IMG/VR virus record: IMGVR_UViG_3300034418_007362
Span: 1 to 47,632 of that record
Source of the DNA: a virus
Direction: 5' to 3' (one strand)
Length of the DNA: 47,632 nt
The notes below the pieces were generated by a model. The model ran no database searches and was not told where the DNA came from. It worked only from the letters and a program-made list of their open reading frames with translations. Positions 4,013-7,638 of the stretch are shown in pieces (position 1 is the first letter of the stretch; each line of letters starts with the position of its first letter). A program made the translations under genes and the position numbers.

Positions 4013-4867
4013 TCACATAAGTGAGATTCTATTTGTCTTGTAAAGTAGGATTTCTTTTGCTTTTTTAGCAGCAAATCCTTCCTCTGTTTTCTTCCTACGA
4101 CCAGCAGTGTAGGTAATATCAAAGTAATGCACATTCATGGACCTTGATTGATCCTCAAACCAGTCATCATCAGCACGGTTAGCAACAAAAACTAAATTTT
4201 GTGCATCGGCAAAGTCCAGCAGGTCCGTCAGTGCATCATCCCCAAAACCGTTGCCATAATCTGCGAAACTATCACGATACGGAGGATCAAAGAAGAAGAA
4301 ACCGTTAGGATCATTGTTCACAGAATCTTTCCAATCTCCTGTCTTGATAGTTACATTCTGAAGTGCATTGTGCCACCAGTTCAATACATCACGATCATAA
4401 ACTTTGTCCTTTTGATTCAACAATCCAGCAGGAGTTCCATACCTTCCGTTGGTATTCTTATTCAGTTGGTAGATACCATTGAACCCAGTCTTCATCAAAA
4501 AGTATAATGTTGCTGCCTCAAATGTTTTGCTCCATTCTTGATAGTTCCAGGCATGAAGATGACGGGTATCAAAGTAGAACTTTTTACGGTCATCTTTACT
4601 CAGTGGTAGATATTGAGATTCAAGACTATCCAGACGTTGTTGAAACTCAGTCAGATCAGTCTTGATTGCTTTGTAGATATTCACGACATCGGAGTTGATG
4701 TCATTGATCACCACATTCTTTGGTTGATAGGTGTTCATCACATGGACAAACATTGCCCCACCACCAAAGAATGGTTCATAATAAGTTTCGAAGGCAGTGG
4801 GCATAAAAGGTGCATAATGTTTCAGCACCTTTGTCTTACCACCTGCCCAGATAAAGAGAGGTTTCAT
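4013..4867 (-). CDS. D12-class (Dam-like) DNA adenine N6-methyltransferase
   Basis: A 284-aa protein with the order of motifs of the alpha-class Dam family: WAGGK at residues 7-11 (AdoMet side), YYEPFFGGGAMF at 29-40 (motif I), NDIN at 55-58, TGFNGIYQLN around 127-136, and the catalytic DPPY at 194-197. It transfers a methyl group from AdoMet to adenine N6. Dam-family enzymes often act on GATC, but the target here cannot be read from sequence. The ATG overlaps the stop of the ParB-like gene (ATGA), so the two are translationally coupled. An EcoRI-like nuclease gene lies just upstream. It may protect phage DNA from host or phage endonucleases. Confidence 0.9.
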   Translation of the reverse strand: MKPLFIWAGGKTKVLKHYAPFMPTAFETYYEPFFGGGAMFVHVMNTYQPKNVVINDINSDVVNIYKAIKTDLTEFQQRLDSLESQYLPLSKDDRKKFYFDTRHLHAWNYQEWSKTFEAATLYFLMKTGFNGIYQLNKNTNGRYGTPAGLLNQKDKVYDRDVLNWWHNALQNVTIKTGDWKDSVNNDPNGFFFFDPPYRDSFADYGNGFGDDALTDLLDFADAQNLVFVANRADDDWFEDQSRSMNVHYFDITYTAGRRKKTEEGFAAKKAKEILLYKTNRISLM

Positions 4868-5883
4868 TCAGAATCTTCTTCTATTTTATTGTCTGCAGTT
4901 TTAACTTTAGATGGATCTCCTAAACCATAGTTAGCGAGTGTATCTTCTCCTATTGTAGCACCTTCAATCGCACCATATGCAAGAGCAGAACGATACTCAT
5001 TAATAAAACGACGAGCAATCAACACAAACTGAGTATTTCCTGCGGTTTTATCTGCAAGTTCTTTAGGTGATAGTTTATTTGCAATAAGTTCTGATTCGAT
5101 AAAGTTCACTAACCCAGTGCGTCTTAATGTACCTCTATTCAATGAATTTTTGAGATAGATGACAGCAGAGAGACCTCCAATCATTGAACCTTGAAGATCA
5201 ACACTCTTTTTAGTTTTCCACTTACTTTCTGATTTAGTGGAAGTAAGAAGTTGATTGTAATAATCGATTGCTTCTTTTACTGTTGAAAGTTCATAAGTAT
5301 TCACTGCTTGCATCAGTTTAGCATAACCTTTTACAGAAAATCCTTCTGGATGACCAATTTTTTCAACATGAACACCCAGTTCAACTAAAGTATTATGAAC
5401 TTCTAGTGCTTCCTTAACACCAGCAGCAATATCTGTGCGAAGTTGTGCAACTTGACTTACTGCTGTTCGGTTGACATTAACTTCTTTGAATAGTTTTGCC
5501 TCTACTTCTACACATTCTCCGTTATCAGCATTTGGATCATGCTCAAATATTTGTGCTTGCAGTGTCATTGTCTCTGGATTCATGCAGTAAATTGCTGCTA
5601 ATACACTCTCATGTTGTCCATCAACAATAGCATATTTTCCGTCTGGACGACGATAAAGACGTAAAGGACTATAAAGATCAGGATTAAAATGTCCTGCCCC
5701 TTTAATCATACTTTCATTAAGAAGTCGTTGATATTTCTCATCAATATAGAGTTGACTTAACATCACATCTTCGATGTTGGGAAAATCATCTGATTTTATT
5801 TCTTTTCTTATTCCAGCAATACCAAGATTATTTGCAAAGTCCAGCAAGTTTACTAGACAATCATTCTGGGAATCGTAATTCAT
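4864..5883 (-). CDS. ParB/Srx-like domain protein (DGQH motif)
   Basis: A 339-aa protein. Residues about 35-130 fit a ParB N-terminal-like fold: SQLYIDEKYQRLL, then SPLRLYRRPDGKYAIVDGQH (DGQH at 88-91), the position of the DGQHR-type motif of ParB, DndB and related proteins. The rest is helical (SVKGYAKLMQAVNTY, FVLIARRFINEYRSALAYGA) and could bind DNA. Phage ParB-like genes often lie beside methyltransferases, as here, where the stop overlaps the methyltransferase start. A leader hairpin and a TATAAT box lie upstream. Whether it acts as a CTP-binding clamp, nuclease or methylation partner is not known; the arginine usual after DGQH is replaced by Glu. Confidence 0.7.
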   Translation of the reverse strand: MNYDSQNDCLVNLLDFANNLGIAGIRKEIKSDDFPNIEDVMLSQLYIDEKYQRLLNESMIKGAGHFNPDLYSPLRLYRRPDGKYAIVDGQHESVLAAIYCMNPETMTLQAQIFEHDPNADNGECVEVEAKLFKEVNVNRTAVSQVAQLRTDIAAGVKEALEVHNTLVELGVHVEKIGHPEGFSVKGYAKLMQAVNTYELSTVKEAIDYYNQLLTSTKSESKWKTKKSVDLQGSMIGGLSAVIYLKNSLNRGTLRRTGLVNFIESELIANKLSPKELADKTAGNTQFVLIARRFINEYRSALAYGAIEGATIGEDTLANYGLGDPSKVKTADNKIEEDSE

Positions 5884-5902
5884 TTTGTTCTCATTTGTTT
5901 AG

Positions 5903-5945
5903 TGTTGGCAAATGCCATTGCGGCACCAACATACGAATAATTATA
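5903..5945 (-). promoter_or_regulatory. Promoter (-10 TATAAT) and leader hairpin of the ParB-methyltransferase operon
   Basis: TATAAT lies at 5945-5940 on the minus strand. Between it and the ATG at 5883 is an inverted repeat, TGTTGG...CCAACA (5931-5926 with 5908-5903), with a GCC/GGC inner stem. The hairpin could stabilise the transcript or serve as a binding site for autoregulation; this is inference. Confidence 0.45.
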
Positions 5946-5958
5946 CAACTAGTTTGGG

Positions 5959-6135
5959 TCAGTTGTCAACTCTTTCAGTATAAACACGAAGGTTAGTGTG
6001 ACCTTGATCATCAACACCAAGCATTTCAGTTTTGATTGTCCACCCAGGTTTATGTGTGAAAGTTACATCAAGTCCTTTCATTCCTACATGATAATCTTTG
6101 CCATTTGAAACAGTGGTTTCATACAGAGGATTGAG
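5959..6135 (-). pseudogene. C-terminal part of the EcoRI-like endonuclease in the +1 frame
   Basis: This frame has no convincing start of its own: its only ATG (6081) has AGGA immediately against it, and the first part overlaps the nuclease gene. Read as a continuation across the A5 tract (6137-6141), it adds 58 residues, for a total of about 245 aa against 277 in EcoRI. The tail aligns with the EcoRI C-terminus as I recall it: W, K three later, D at +11, T at +15 and LRV at +17 to +19 are shared without gaps. I therefore read it as the lost C-terminus, reached by frameshifting, broken by mutation, or separated by a homopolymer sequencing error. Confidence 0.6.
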
Positions 6136-6697
6136 GAAAAAGAGTATTGATACGTTCACAAATAACTTCAATCATTGTAGCATTGAGAAACTCTTTTGTA
6201 AAGCAATCTGTGTTAAGAAATGCACTGTTGCTACCCGGATTGTACTGGTCGAAACCTTCCAGGTGAGCAACATTCAATGCTTTCACAATTTGTCCATAGG
6301 TAAGTCGTCCCAGAAGTTTATCCCAGAAACGATATGCACCTTCTCCGGTACAAAAAGTGACATAGGAAACGTTGGGATTGATAAGACGGCAGATAAAGTT
6401 ATTCTTAAACCAACGTTCGATAGCATTACCTGCGTCTTGCTGTTTCTTACCTTCAAATACTGCAATCAGCACACCATTGTAGAACCATGCACCACCATCA
6501 GGTTCACATGCACCAATCCCACCAGGAATCTGTTCCTTAGTAAGTTTCTTTTGCAGAGTAAGTTCTGGGTAGATTTTCTTCAGTTCAGCAAAAACACTCT
6601 CTTTCTGATGCTTACATTGCTCATCAAGTTTGCGAGCACGGGCATCAGTTGCAACTGTACCATTCTGGATTCCACCCTTGAACTGATAGTTTTGCAT
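6119..6697 (-). CDS. EcoRI-family type II restriction endonuclease, main part
   Basis: A 192-aa protein with the signature of EcoRI: PDGG (catalytic Asp about 67), VLIAVFEGK (Glu 82, Lys 84; the E-x-K of PD-(D/E)XK) and AGNAIER at 89-95. In EcoRI the AGNAIER segment (Asn141, Glu144, Arg145) contacts the AATT bases of GAATTC. Later parts (SYVTFCTG; CFTKEFLN) also follow EcoRI. Compared with EcoRI, about 24 residues between the E-x-K and AGNAIER are missing and the C-terminus lies in another frame (5959-6135). I choose the ATG at 6697, not 6709, because it sits where the other leader modules place the start. It could restrict competing phages or digest host DNA. Activity is uncertain because of the frame break. 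Confidence 0.8.
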   Translation of the reverse strand: MQNYQFKGGIQNGTVATDARARKLDEQCKHQKESVFAELKKIYPELTLQKKLTKEQIPGGIGACEPDGGAWFYNGVLIAVFEGKKQQDAGNAIERWFKNNFICRLINPNVSYVTFCTGEGAYRFWDKLLGRLTYGQIVKALNVAHLEGFDQYNPGSNSAFLNTDCFTKEFLNATMIEVICERINTLFPQSSV

Positions 6698-6727
6698 GGT
6701 GCTGTTCATTTGACTCTTTTAATATAC
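6698..6727 (-). promoter_or_regulatory. Early promoter-leader module, copy 5
   Basis: The minus strand reads CCTGTATATTAAAAGAGTC then AAATGAACAGCACC and the ATG at 6697 of the EcoRI-like gene. It is almost identical to copies 2 and 4, which indicates co-regulation with the DpnI-C-like winged-helix gene. The ATG within AAATGAAC lies in the conserved leader and is probably not the start. Confidence 0.65.
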
Positions 6728-6730
6728 AGG

Positions 6731-6755
6731 AAAACCATCCCCTGTGGGGGGATGG
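6731..6755 (-). terminator. Intrinsic terminator
   Basis: CCATCCCC (6755-6748) pairs with GGGGATGG (6742-6735) around a 5-nt loop and is followed by TTTT on the minus strand. It ends the transcript of the 66-aa gene and is directly followed by the promoter of the EcoRI-like gene, so the nuclease is set up as a separate unit. Confidence 0.7.
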
Positions 6756-6783
6756 TGGACAGTTTGACCAACTGGCACAATGG

Positions 6784-7038: not shown

Positions 7039-7638
7039 CTAGGACACTTCTTTAAGTGGTTTAACTACATTGTGATAATACCATTTGCTATACTCATTTC
7101 TTTTTTCTTTATTTTGTTCCCTGTGCATTTTCCATAAGTCTTTCAGATGTTCTTTGTTTTCCTCTTTGTATTTTTTAATTTTATCTTGATTATTTGCTCT
7201 CCATTCTTTCATATATTCTTTCCGTCTCCCCTTTATTTTTCTTTGATGCTCTCTTTGTCTTTTTCTTTTTGCTTCTCTCTTTTCATCTTCAGTAAAGTAT
7301 TTTTTATTGTGTGGCGGTTTAACTCTATTTTTAGCAGCAATACTTTGTTTCTTTCGTGTTTCATCGGACGTTACATAACCACTAACACCTTCTCCACCAT
7401 CTGTTCGATTATGTAATAAACCCCCGTTTATTTTTTTACCCAGAACATGTATCATATAGATTTCGTGTCTAAAGCTATCCTCCTCGGACATTCTATCTTT
7501 AAGTATTATAATTCTACTCTTATCTTTCGGTCTATTGATACTTCTATTATAGGAATATAAACGGTTTCCACTACCCTTACCAATGTAGTAAGGTGTTCCG
7601 TCCTCACGCAAATAAGCGTAGGTGTAATATTTTTGCAT
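7039..7638 (-). CDS. GIY-YIG homing endonuclease
   Basis: A 199-aa protein. Residues 5-95 form a GIY-YIG domain: YTYAYL at 5-10, YYIGKGSGNR at 17-26 (with the conserved Arg), a Glu in RHEIYMIHVLG and NRTDGGEG as the closing motif. The C-terminal half is very basic and rich in Lys, Glu and Arg (about 105-190) and would bind DNA as a helical segment. Such free-standing enzymes cut a related phage's genome and spread by repair. It lies between two unrelated small genes with no intron visible. A late promoter in the loop of a hairpin that covers the start suggests late-only translation, as in T4 I-TevI. Confidence 0.85.
   Translation of the reverse strand: MQKYYTYAYLREDGTPYYIGKGSGNRLYSYNRSINRPKDKSRIIILKDRMSEEDSFRHEIYMIHVLGKKINGGLLHNRTDGGEGVSGYVTSDETRKKQSIAAKNRVKPPHNKKYFTEDEKREAKRKRQREHQRKIKGRRKEYMKEWRANNQDKIKKYKEENKEHLKDLWKMHREQNKEKRNEYSKWYYHNVVKPLKEVS

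Follow-up and report, generated by a model that had tools for sequence, protein, structure and literature searches.

The window analysed here, the whole 47,632-nucleotide stretch of viral record IMGVR_UViG_3300034418_007362, encodes a compact EcoRI-like endonuclease (R) and a D12-class adenine methyltransferase (M), and carriage of R among T4-like cyanophages is linked to depletion of AATT from their genomes. We consider it probable that these genes form a phage type II restriction-modification (R-M) system in which R cuts AATT, M protects against it, and host DNA is degraded. Three computed observations lie behind this reading: the relationship of R to EcoRI, the adjacency of the R and M genes together with one fusion of the two, and the link between AATT depletion and R carriage.

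The endonuclease gene and its methylase partner

The features of the locus discussed below are all on the minus strand:

4013–4867, minus strand: M, D12-class N6-adenine DNA methyltransferase gene, the predicted partner of R (PF02086, TIGR00571)
4864–5883, minus strand: ParB-like gene (phrog_2558) between R and M (PHROG match, comparison with locus L002)
5884–6107, minus strand: inserted segment upstream of the ParB-like gene (ORFs, comparison with L002)
5940–5969, minus strand: perfect sigma-70-type promoter, TTGACA-18-TATAAT (12/12, a consensus match only)
6108–6122, minus strand: ATGAAACCACTGTTT, remnant of the original M start (MKPLF) at the R stop (window compared with L002)
6119–6709, minus strand: R, predicted EcoRI-like PD-(D/E)XK endonuclease gene (ORF, PHROG match, alignment, hhalign)
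6734–6756, minus strand: terminator-like hairpin just upstream of R (9 pairs, 6 GC, T-rich tail)

The R open reading frame is 196 aa long, or 192 aa counted from an inner ATG at 6697. A preliminary description had given the gene as 5959–6697, a span of 739 nt, which is not divisible by three; the true ORF is 6119–6709, and its stop coincides with that of its homologues, including those of loci L001 (100% identical) and L002 (99%). Because L001 and L002 share this end, no frameshift is involved, and a frameshifted 245-aa EcoRI protein across 5959–6697 was rejected: relatives stop at the same place and the supposed tail is inserted DNA. What had been taken as the C-terminal part (ORF 5959–6171) is in another frame, mostly within the segment inserted between R and M.

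R belongs to phrog_2400 (E = 7e-95 in a PHROG search), whose function is given in PHROG as unknown. This family is present in 65 of 50,697 phage records, all of them Synechococcus phages, with S-RIM2 isolates, S-BM1 and S-CREM2 as the isolates that carry it, and homologues are found on 57 IMG/VR contigs. The preliminary description did not count the gene among the standard ones of T4-like cyanophages; it is already in the databases as a ‘hypothetical’ cyanophage gene, and S-CREM2 gp11 (WNL50930), 80% identical to the window R, is labelled ‘restriction endonuclease EcoRI’, its function not being discussed in the text of the S-CREM2 paper. Scans of GTDB contigs with short exact patterns and a plasmid search gave no cellular relatives of R. 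In the open-access literature we found no account of a cyanophage module that is EcoRI-like, directed at AATT and paired with a methylase and that leaves a footprint across the genome; such a module appears to be undescribed so far.

The window M matches PF02086 (E = 6.7e-33) and TIGR00571 (E = 4e-41), and its closest solved relative is M.DpnII (2dpm, E = 1.6e-25). That ParB-like and adenine methyltransferase genes adjoin R was noted in the preliminary description and is borne out; the pairing of R and M as overlapping genes had been missed. A D12 methylase gene directly follows R in most loci, often with a 4 bp ATGA overlap of the R stop and the M start. In L002, whose R is nearly identical to that of the window, the M start sits in the R stop codon (ATGA), and in L071 the two form a single stop-free ORF of 470 aa. 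The R-M gene pair is therefore the normal unit, a predicted phage type II R-M arrangement.

Comparison with L002, which is near-identical but has no ParB-like gene between R and M, indicates that the pair in the window has been split by a ParB-like cassette, with M beginning anew at 4867. The ATGAAACCACTGTTT remnant (6122–6108) is still present at the R stop and so marks the point of insertion, and the stop of the ParB-like gene overlaps the M start. The preliminary description had R under its own terminator and promoter; the terminator-like hairpin (6756–6734) does lie upstream, but the sole perfect promoter is downstream of R, and this predicted promoter (5969–5940) would drive the ParB-like gene and M. 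No sigma-70 site of at least 10/12 is present within 220 nt upstream of the window R, and several relatives have a promoter site upstream of R (for example L066 and L071, 12/12). The vicinity also contains an ORF (7039–7638, minus strand) resembling GIY-YIG or homing-type endonucleases (phrog_10829, phrog_314) that is absent from this position in L002, and in S-CREM2 (L043, 5299–7908) a large protein annotated as a Cas9/Csn1-like virion endonuclease is encoded directly upstream of R.

Escherichia coli Dam reads the first G of GATC with K9 and the fourth base pair with R124 (PMC10073500). At these positions the window M has I and Q respectively; the R124 equivalent is Q in 35 of 37 aligned methylases, and the K9 equivalent in other phage methylases is I, V or T, some starts being uncertain, with K kept in S-CREM2. 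A Dam-like specificity is not favoured, as both residues contacting the outer base pairs are replaced, and GATC is an unlikely target for M, which is predicted instead to methylate AATT. D12 methylases are found on carrier contigs G007 and G008, and no match to a D12 or N6/N4 methylase family was obtained on G001 or G003, both of which are incomplete contigs.

Avoidance of AATT and other tetranucleotides

We set AATT counts against second-order Markov expectations (O/E). Three carriers have no AATT at all: G001 (0 of 339 expected), G002 (0 of 281) and G003 (0 of 233). G001 (111,864 bp) and G002, at 99.99% identity, belong to a single species, to which G003 (73,883 bp) is 86.7% identical; neither G001 nor G003 has a visible M. 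Other carriers range from strong to modest depletion (G005 0.12, G004 0.16, S-BM1 0.22, G008 0.25, S-RIM2 0.30, G007 0.62, G006 0.70, S-CREM2 0.77 and the window 0.82), and in the non-carriers depletion is slight or nil, with values of 0.75 (Syn33), 0.77 (S-RIM12), 0.85 (S-RIM50), 0.89 (Syn9), 0.95 (S-SM2), 0.99 (S-PM2) and 1.03 (S-RSM4). By z-score AATT is the most depleted of all 4-mers in G001–G005, G008, S-RIM2 and S-BM1.

In G001–G003 the tetranucleotides TTAA, ATAT and TATA occur about as often as expected and GATC slightly less often (about 0.8), and AATT is gone in every flanking context, which argues for a 4-base site. The preliminary description had entertained GAATTC as the site and reported at least nine copies in the window, where we count 12; GAATTC is not favoured as the specific site, since avoidance covers the AATT core whatever flanks it, and the predicted target of R is AATT rather than GAATTC. 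The AATT-free G003 also encodes a tryptophan halogenase (L126, 99–1652; phrog_2928, E = 1.6e-147).

Because the Markov ratio gives too low a measure of avoidance in genomes that are also poor in AAT and ATT, such as S-CREM2, we added a test at codon junctions. Codons that would make AATT are used at none of 570 junctions in G001 and none of 350 in G003, and the pooled odds ratios are 0–0.35 in 10 carriers versus 0.28–0.69 in 7 non-carriers (Mann-Whitney p = 0.001, a value from few, related phages that ignores phylogeny). AATT depletion is tied to carriage of R.

In an independent sample of 79 contigs picked by a baseplate gene, AATT is entirely absent only from the G001/G003 clade (92–100% identity), and the next relatives, at 77–78% identity, have O/E values of 0.71–1.06. 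None of the 27 baseplate-picked records searched for R contains it; they include four longer than 140 kb (G028, G031, G034 and G038) but are mostly fragments, among them G013 and G014, two short contigs of the purged clade that have no AATT. Some fragment contigs carry R with neither a visible M nor strong avoidance (L037, L039 and L072–L076), and another, L069, has M and little avoidance.

The window itself contains 392 AATT sites, with a codon odds ratio (0.354) inside the non-carrier range, and the shortfall falls mainly near the module (11 observed versus 29 expected at 4–8 kb); with avoidance this weak, protection of the window phage would depend on its methylase. If R had been acquired recently or were poorly expressed in this phage, and were possibly inactive, with M kept for anti-restriction, this would account for a ratio so far from the 0–0.3 of many carriers and for the local character of the depletion, as well as for the cassette separating R from M and the presence of a perfect promoter before the ParB-like gene and M with no good one before R. 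We nonetheless regard this as unlikely, in that the window R is intact with all conserved residues present, M would make purging of AATT unnecessary, and G006 and G007, in which R and M are intact, are likewise only modestly depleted.

A further question is which DNA would be cut. With hundreds of AATT sites in every 50 kb, cyanophages that do not carry R would be sensitive, and carriers would be protected, so that R might chiefly serve to keep out co-infecting phages, with host DNA degradation secondary. Host DNA, being unmethylated, would be cut as well, however, making host damage unavoidable, and in chloroviruses the restriction enzymes were tested and are not behind mutual exclusion but have host DNA degradation attributed to them (PMC7019647); exclusion as the main purpose is in our judgement rather improbable.

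AATT is not the only tetranucleotide to be lost. CCGG is wholly or almost absent from most of the T4-like cyanophages examined, with or without R (L089, L091, L092, L094, L096–L099 and L115–L129; for example 0 of 154 expected in G001 and 0 of 35 in Syn33), and is not purged in the window, G006, G008 or S-CREM2. From 50 kb of S-SM2 (L093), a phage without R, CTAG is missing altogether (0 of 85 expected), as is TTAA from two cyanophage-like IMG/VR contigs (L160, 0 of 39; L203, 0 of 30). These losses without R indicate that purging can occur without it, through host R-M systems or other phage nucleases. Two further tetranucleotides are rare: AGCT is strongly under-represented in the window (positions 1–47,632; 22 versus 99 expected), a bias shared by most of the cyanophages compared, and GATC is strongly depleted in S-RIM50 (L098; 39 versus 201 expected) relative to other cyanophages.

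Phage avoidance of sites cut by host R-M systems is well known (PMC4687349), and together with the purging of CCGG, CTAG and TTAA without R it suggests another explanation, that hosts carry an AATT-cutting system, M is an anti-restriction methylase and R is incidental or has some other target. Against this, AATT depletion tracks carriage of R, and the same host, WH7803, is listed for S-RIM2, S-PM2 and Syn33, whose O/E values are 0.30 versus 0.99 and 0.75. R and M are moreover adjacent or fused, and the GNAIER segment present in R is the one that contacts AATT in EcoRI (PMC4081073). We therefore think host restriction a poor candidate for the source of the pattern.

Relationship of R to EcoRI

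The motifs first noticed in R, PDGG, E-x-K (as EGK) and AGNAIER, are indeed found in the minus-strand reading frame, and they vary little or not at all across 31–36 homologues. The catalytic-motif residues P66, D67, G68 and G69 are followed in order by E82-x-K84 across 25–36 homologues, with a single DAG variant (L075); G90, N91, A92, E94 and R95 are invariant and I93 nearly so, and GNAIER is followed by an invariant WFKNN (31–36 aligned).

Alignment of the R profile to seven plasmid-borne EcoRI-family enzymes using hhalign gives a probability of 95.3% and a score of 59.6 over 157 columns with the motifs in register, the order PDGG, E-x-K, GNAIER and K-N being kept. In 150 column-shuffled controls the mean score is 14.4 and the maximum 24.5, and the reversed profile scores 15.9. 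The probability is 92% without the Paracoccus member and 77% against EcoRI alone. This Paracoccus plasmid enzyme is a bridging one: it matches PF02963 (E = 2.5e-16), and BLASTP aligns it with the window R at 30% identity over 131 aa.

PF02963 itself matches the window R at 11.2 bits (E = 0.19, residues 76–100), below the Pfam gathering cut-off of 22 bits, and among 31 members of the R family the best E value is 0.027, also short of the cut-off. The HMM comparison proposed in the preliminary description thus does not place R in the Pfam family, and its assignment to the EcoRI family is upheld only as a distant relationship, by hhalign with its shuffled controls, by BLASTP and by the motifs. Phmmer and profile searches of PDB sequences with the R family did not return EcoRI. 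Two AlphaFold models have pLDDT values of 81.6 and 87.5, and Foldseek searches of the PDB with them gave no EcoRI among the matches listed and no match of any kind with E ≤ 0.001; the best viral fold match outside the family is a weak one, to the ‘Restriction endonuclease’ of S-CAM7 (E = 1.3e-3, TM 0.35). That R is a PD-(D/E)XK nuclease of another lineage with convergent EcoRI motifs would fit the sub-threshold Pfam scores, the PDB fold searches and the S-CAM7 match, but is very improbable given an alignment score far above the shuffled maximum, the conserved motif order and the Paracoccus enzyme as an intermediate. By sequence profile R is a distant EcoRI relative, and by the curated threshold it is not a PF02963 member.

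Proposed role and comparison with known systems

Cyanomyoviruses were noted in a 2010 review to have no denA, ndd or denB and perhaps to use an undescribed method of degradation (PMC2984593). From the patterns above we infer a cleavage activity, a specificity for M, a timing and a role against host DNA, as follows. The compact R would read the AATT core through GNAIER and cut unmodified DNA there, and M would methylate AATT and so spare the phage DNA. In the infected cell the host chromosome, lacking this methylation, would be broken up by R, which would thereby provide both shut-off and a nucleotide supply and replace the missing T4 nucleases DenA and DenB; competing phages without protection would be cut too. 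The phage would protect itself through M, in most cases aided by the loss of AATT sites, and, in the single clade whose contigs show no M, through the loss of all of them. The earlier suggestion that host or competitor DNA is digested by R is a plausible one that gains support here, and a part in host DNA degradation is likely on this analysis.

We lean towards the view that this clade is a lytic lineage with R and no methylase, immune through an AATT-free genome, and that the CCGG, CTAG and TTAA purges may mark further endonucleases that cut what their carriers lack. A coding-dense stretch of 112 kb free of AATT would offer an exceptionally plain example of self-protection through site loss, and the nuclease specificities of uncultured phages could come to be predicted from the sites that they have purged. 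The module is a concrete candidate for host DNA degradation in T4-like cyanophages, with a predicted cut site, a visible genomic footprint and carriers in S-RIM2, S-BM1 and S-CREM2, and the AATT pattern in carriers suggests how cyanophages may destroy host DNA. If this is so, restriction enzymes, familiar as a defence of bacteria, would be on the attacker's side in abundant marine phages.

Among known systems, the chlorovirus R-M enzymes (CviAII and others) offer a parallel by description: they are virus-encoded with R beside M, have short sites and are thought to degrade host DNA. They differ in belonging to viruses of eukaryotic algae and in packaging R in the virion, and the passages of the source drawn on here make no mention of a complete site purge (PMC7019647). 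MluCI (AATT) and MunI (CAATTG) share the AATT core, a likeness of recognition site; both are bacterial enzymes, unlike the phage R, and they have been named with EcoRI as possible mosaic relatives (PMC4081073).

EcoRI and RsrI (PF02963) have PDGG, E-x-K and GNAIER in the same order as R and an AATT core in their site. In contrast to these 277-residue enzymes, the phage R is 172–196 aa long, falls below the Pfam cut-off, is phage-borne, has a predicted site of AATT rather than GAATTC, and is partnered by a D12 methylase (PF02086) and not one of the M.EcoRI type (PF13651) that accompanies classical EcoRI. The EcoRI-family enzyme of Paracoccus marcusii pCP157_17 (NZ_CP065909) also has GNAIER and adjoins a D12-class adenine methylase, but it is 238 aa long, plasmid-borne, approximately 30% identical to the phage R, and encoded after M rather than before it. 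S-CREM2 gp11 is close to the window R, yet its methylase is divergent (33%) and does not adjoin R. With T4 DenA and DenB the likeness is one of proposed role, the selective destruction of host DNA. T4 spares its own DNA by modified cytosine, whereas carrier DNA would be spared by methylation of AATT or by its absence.
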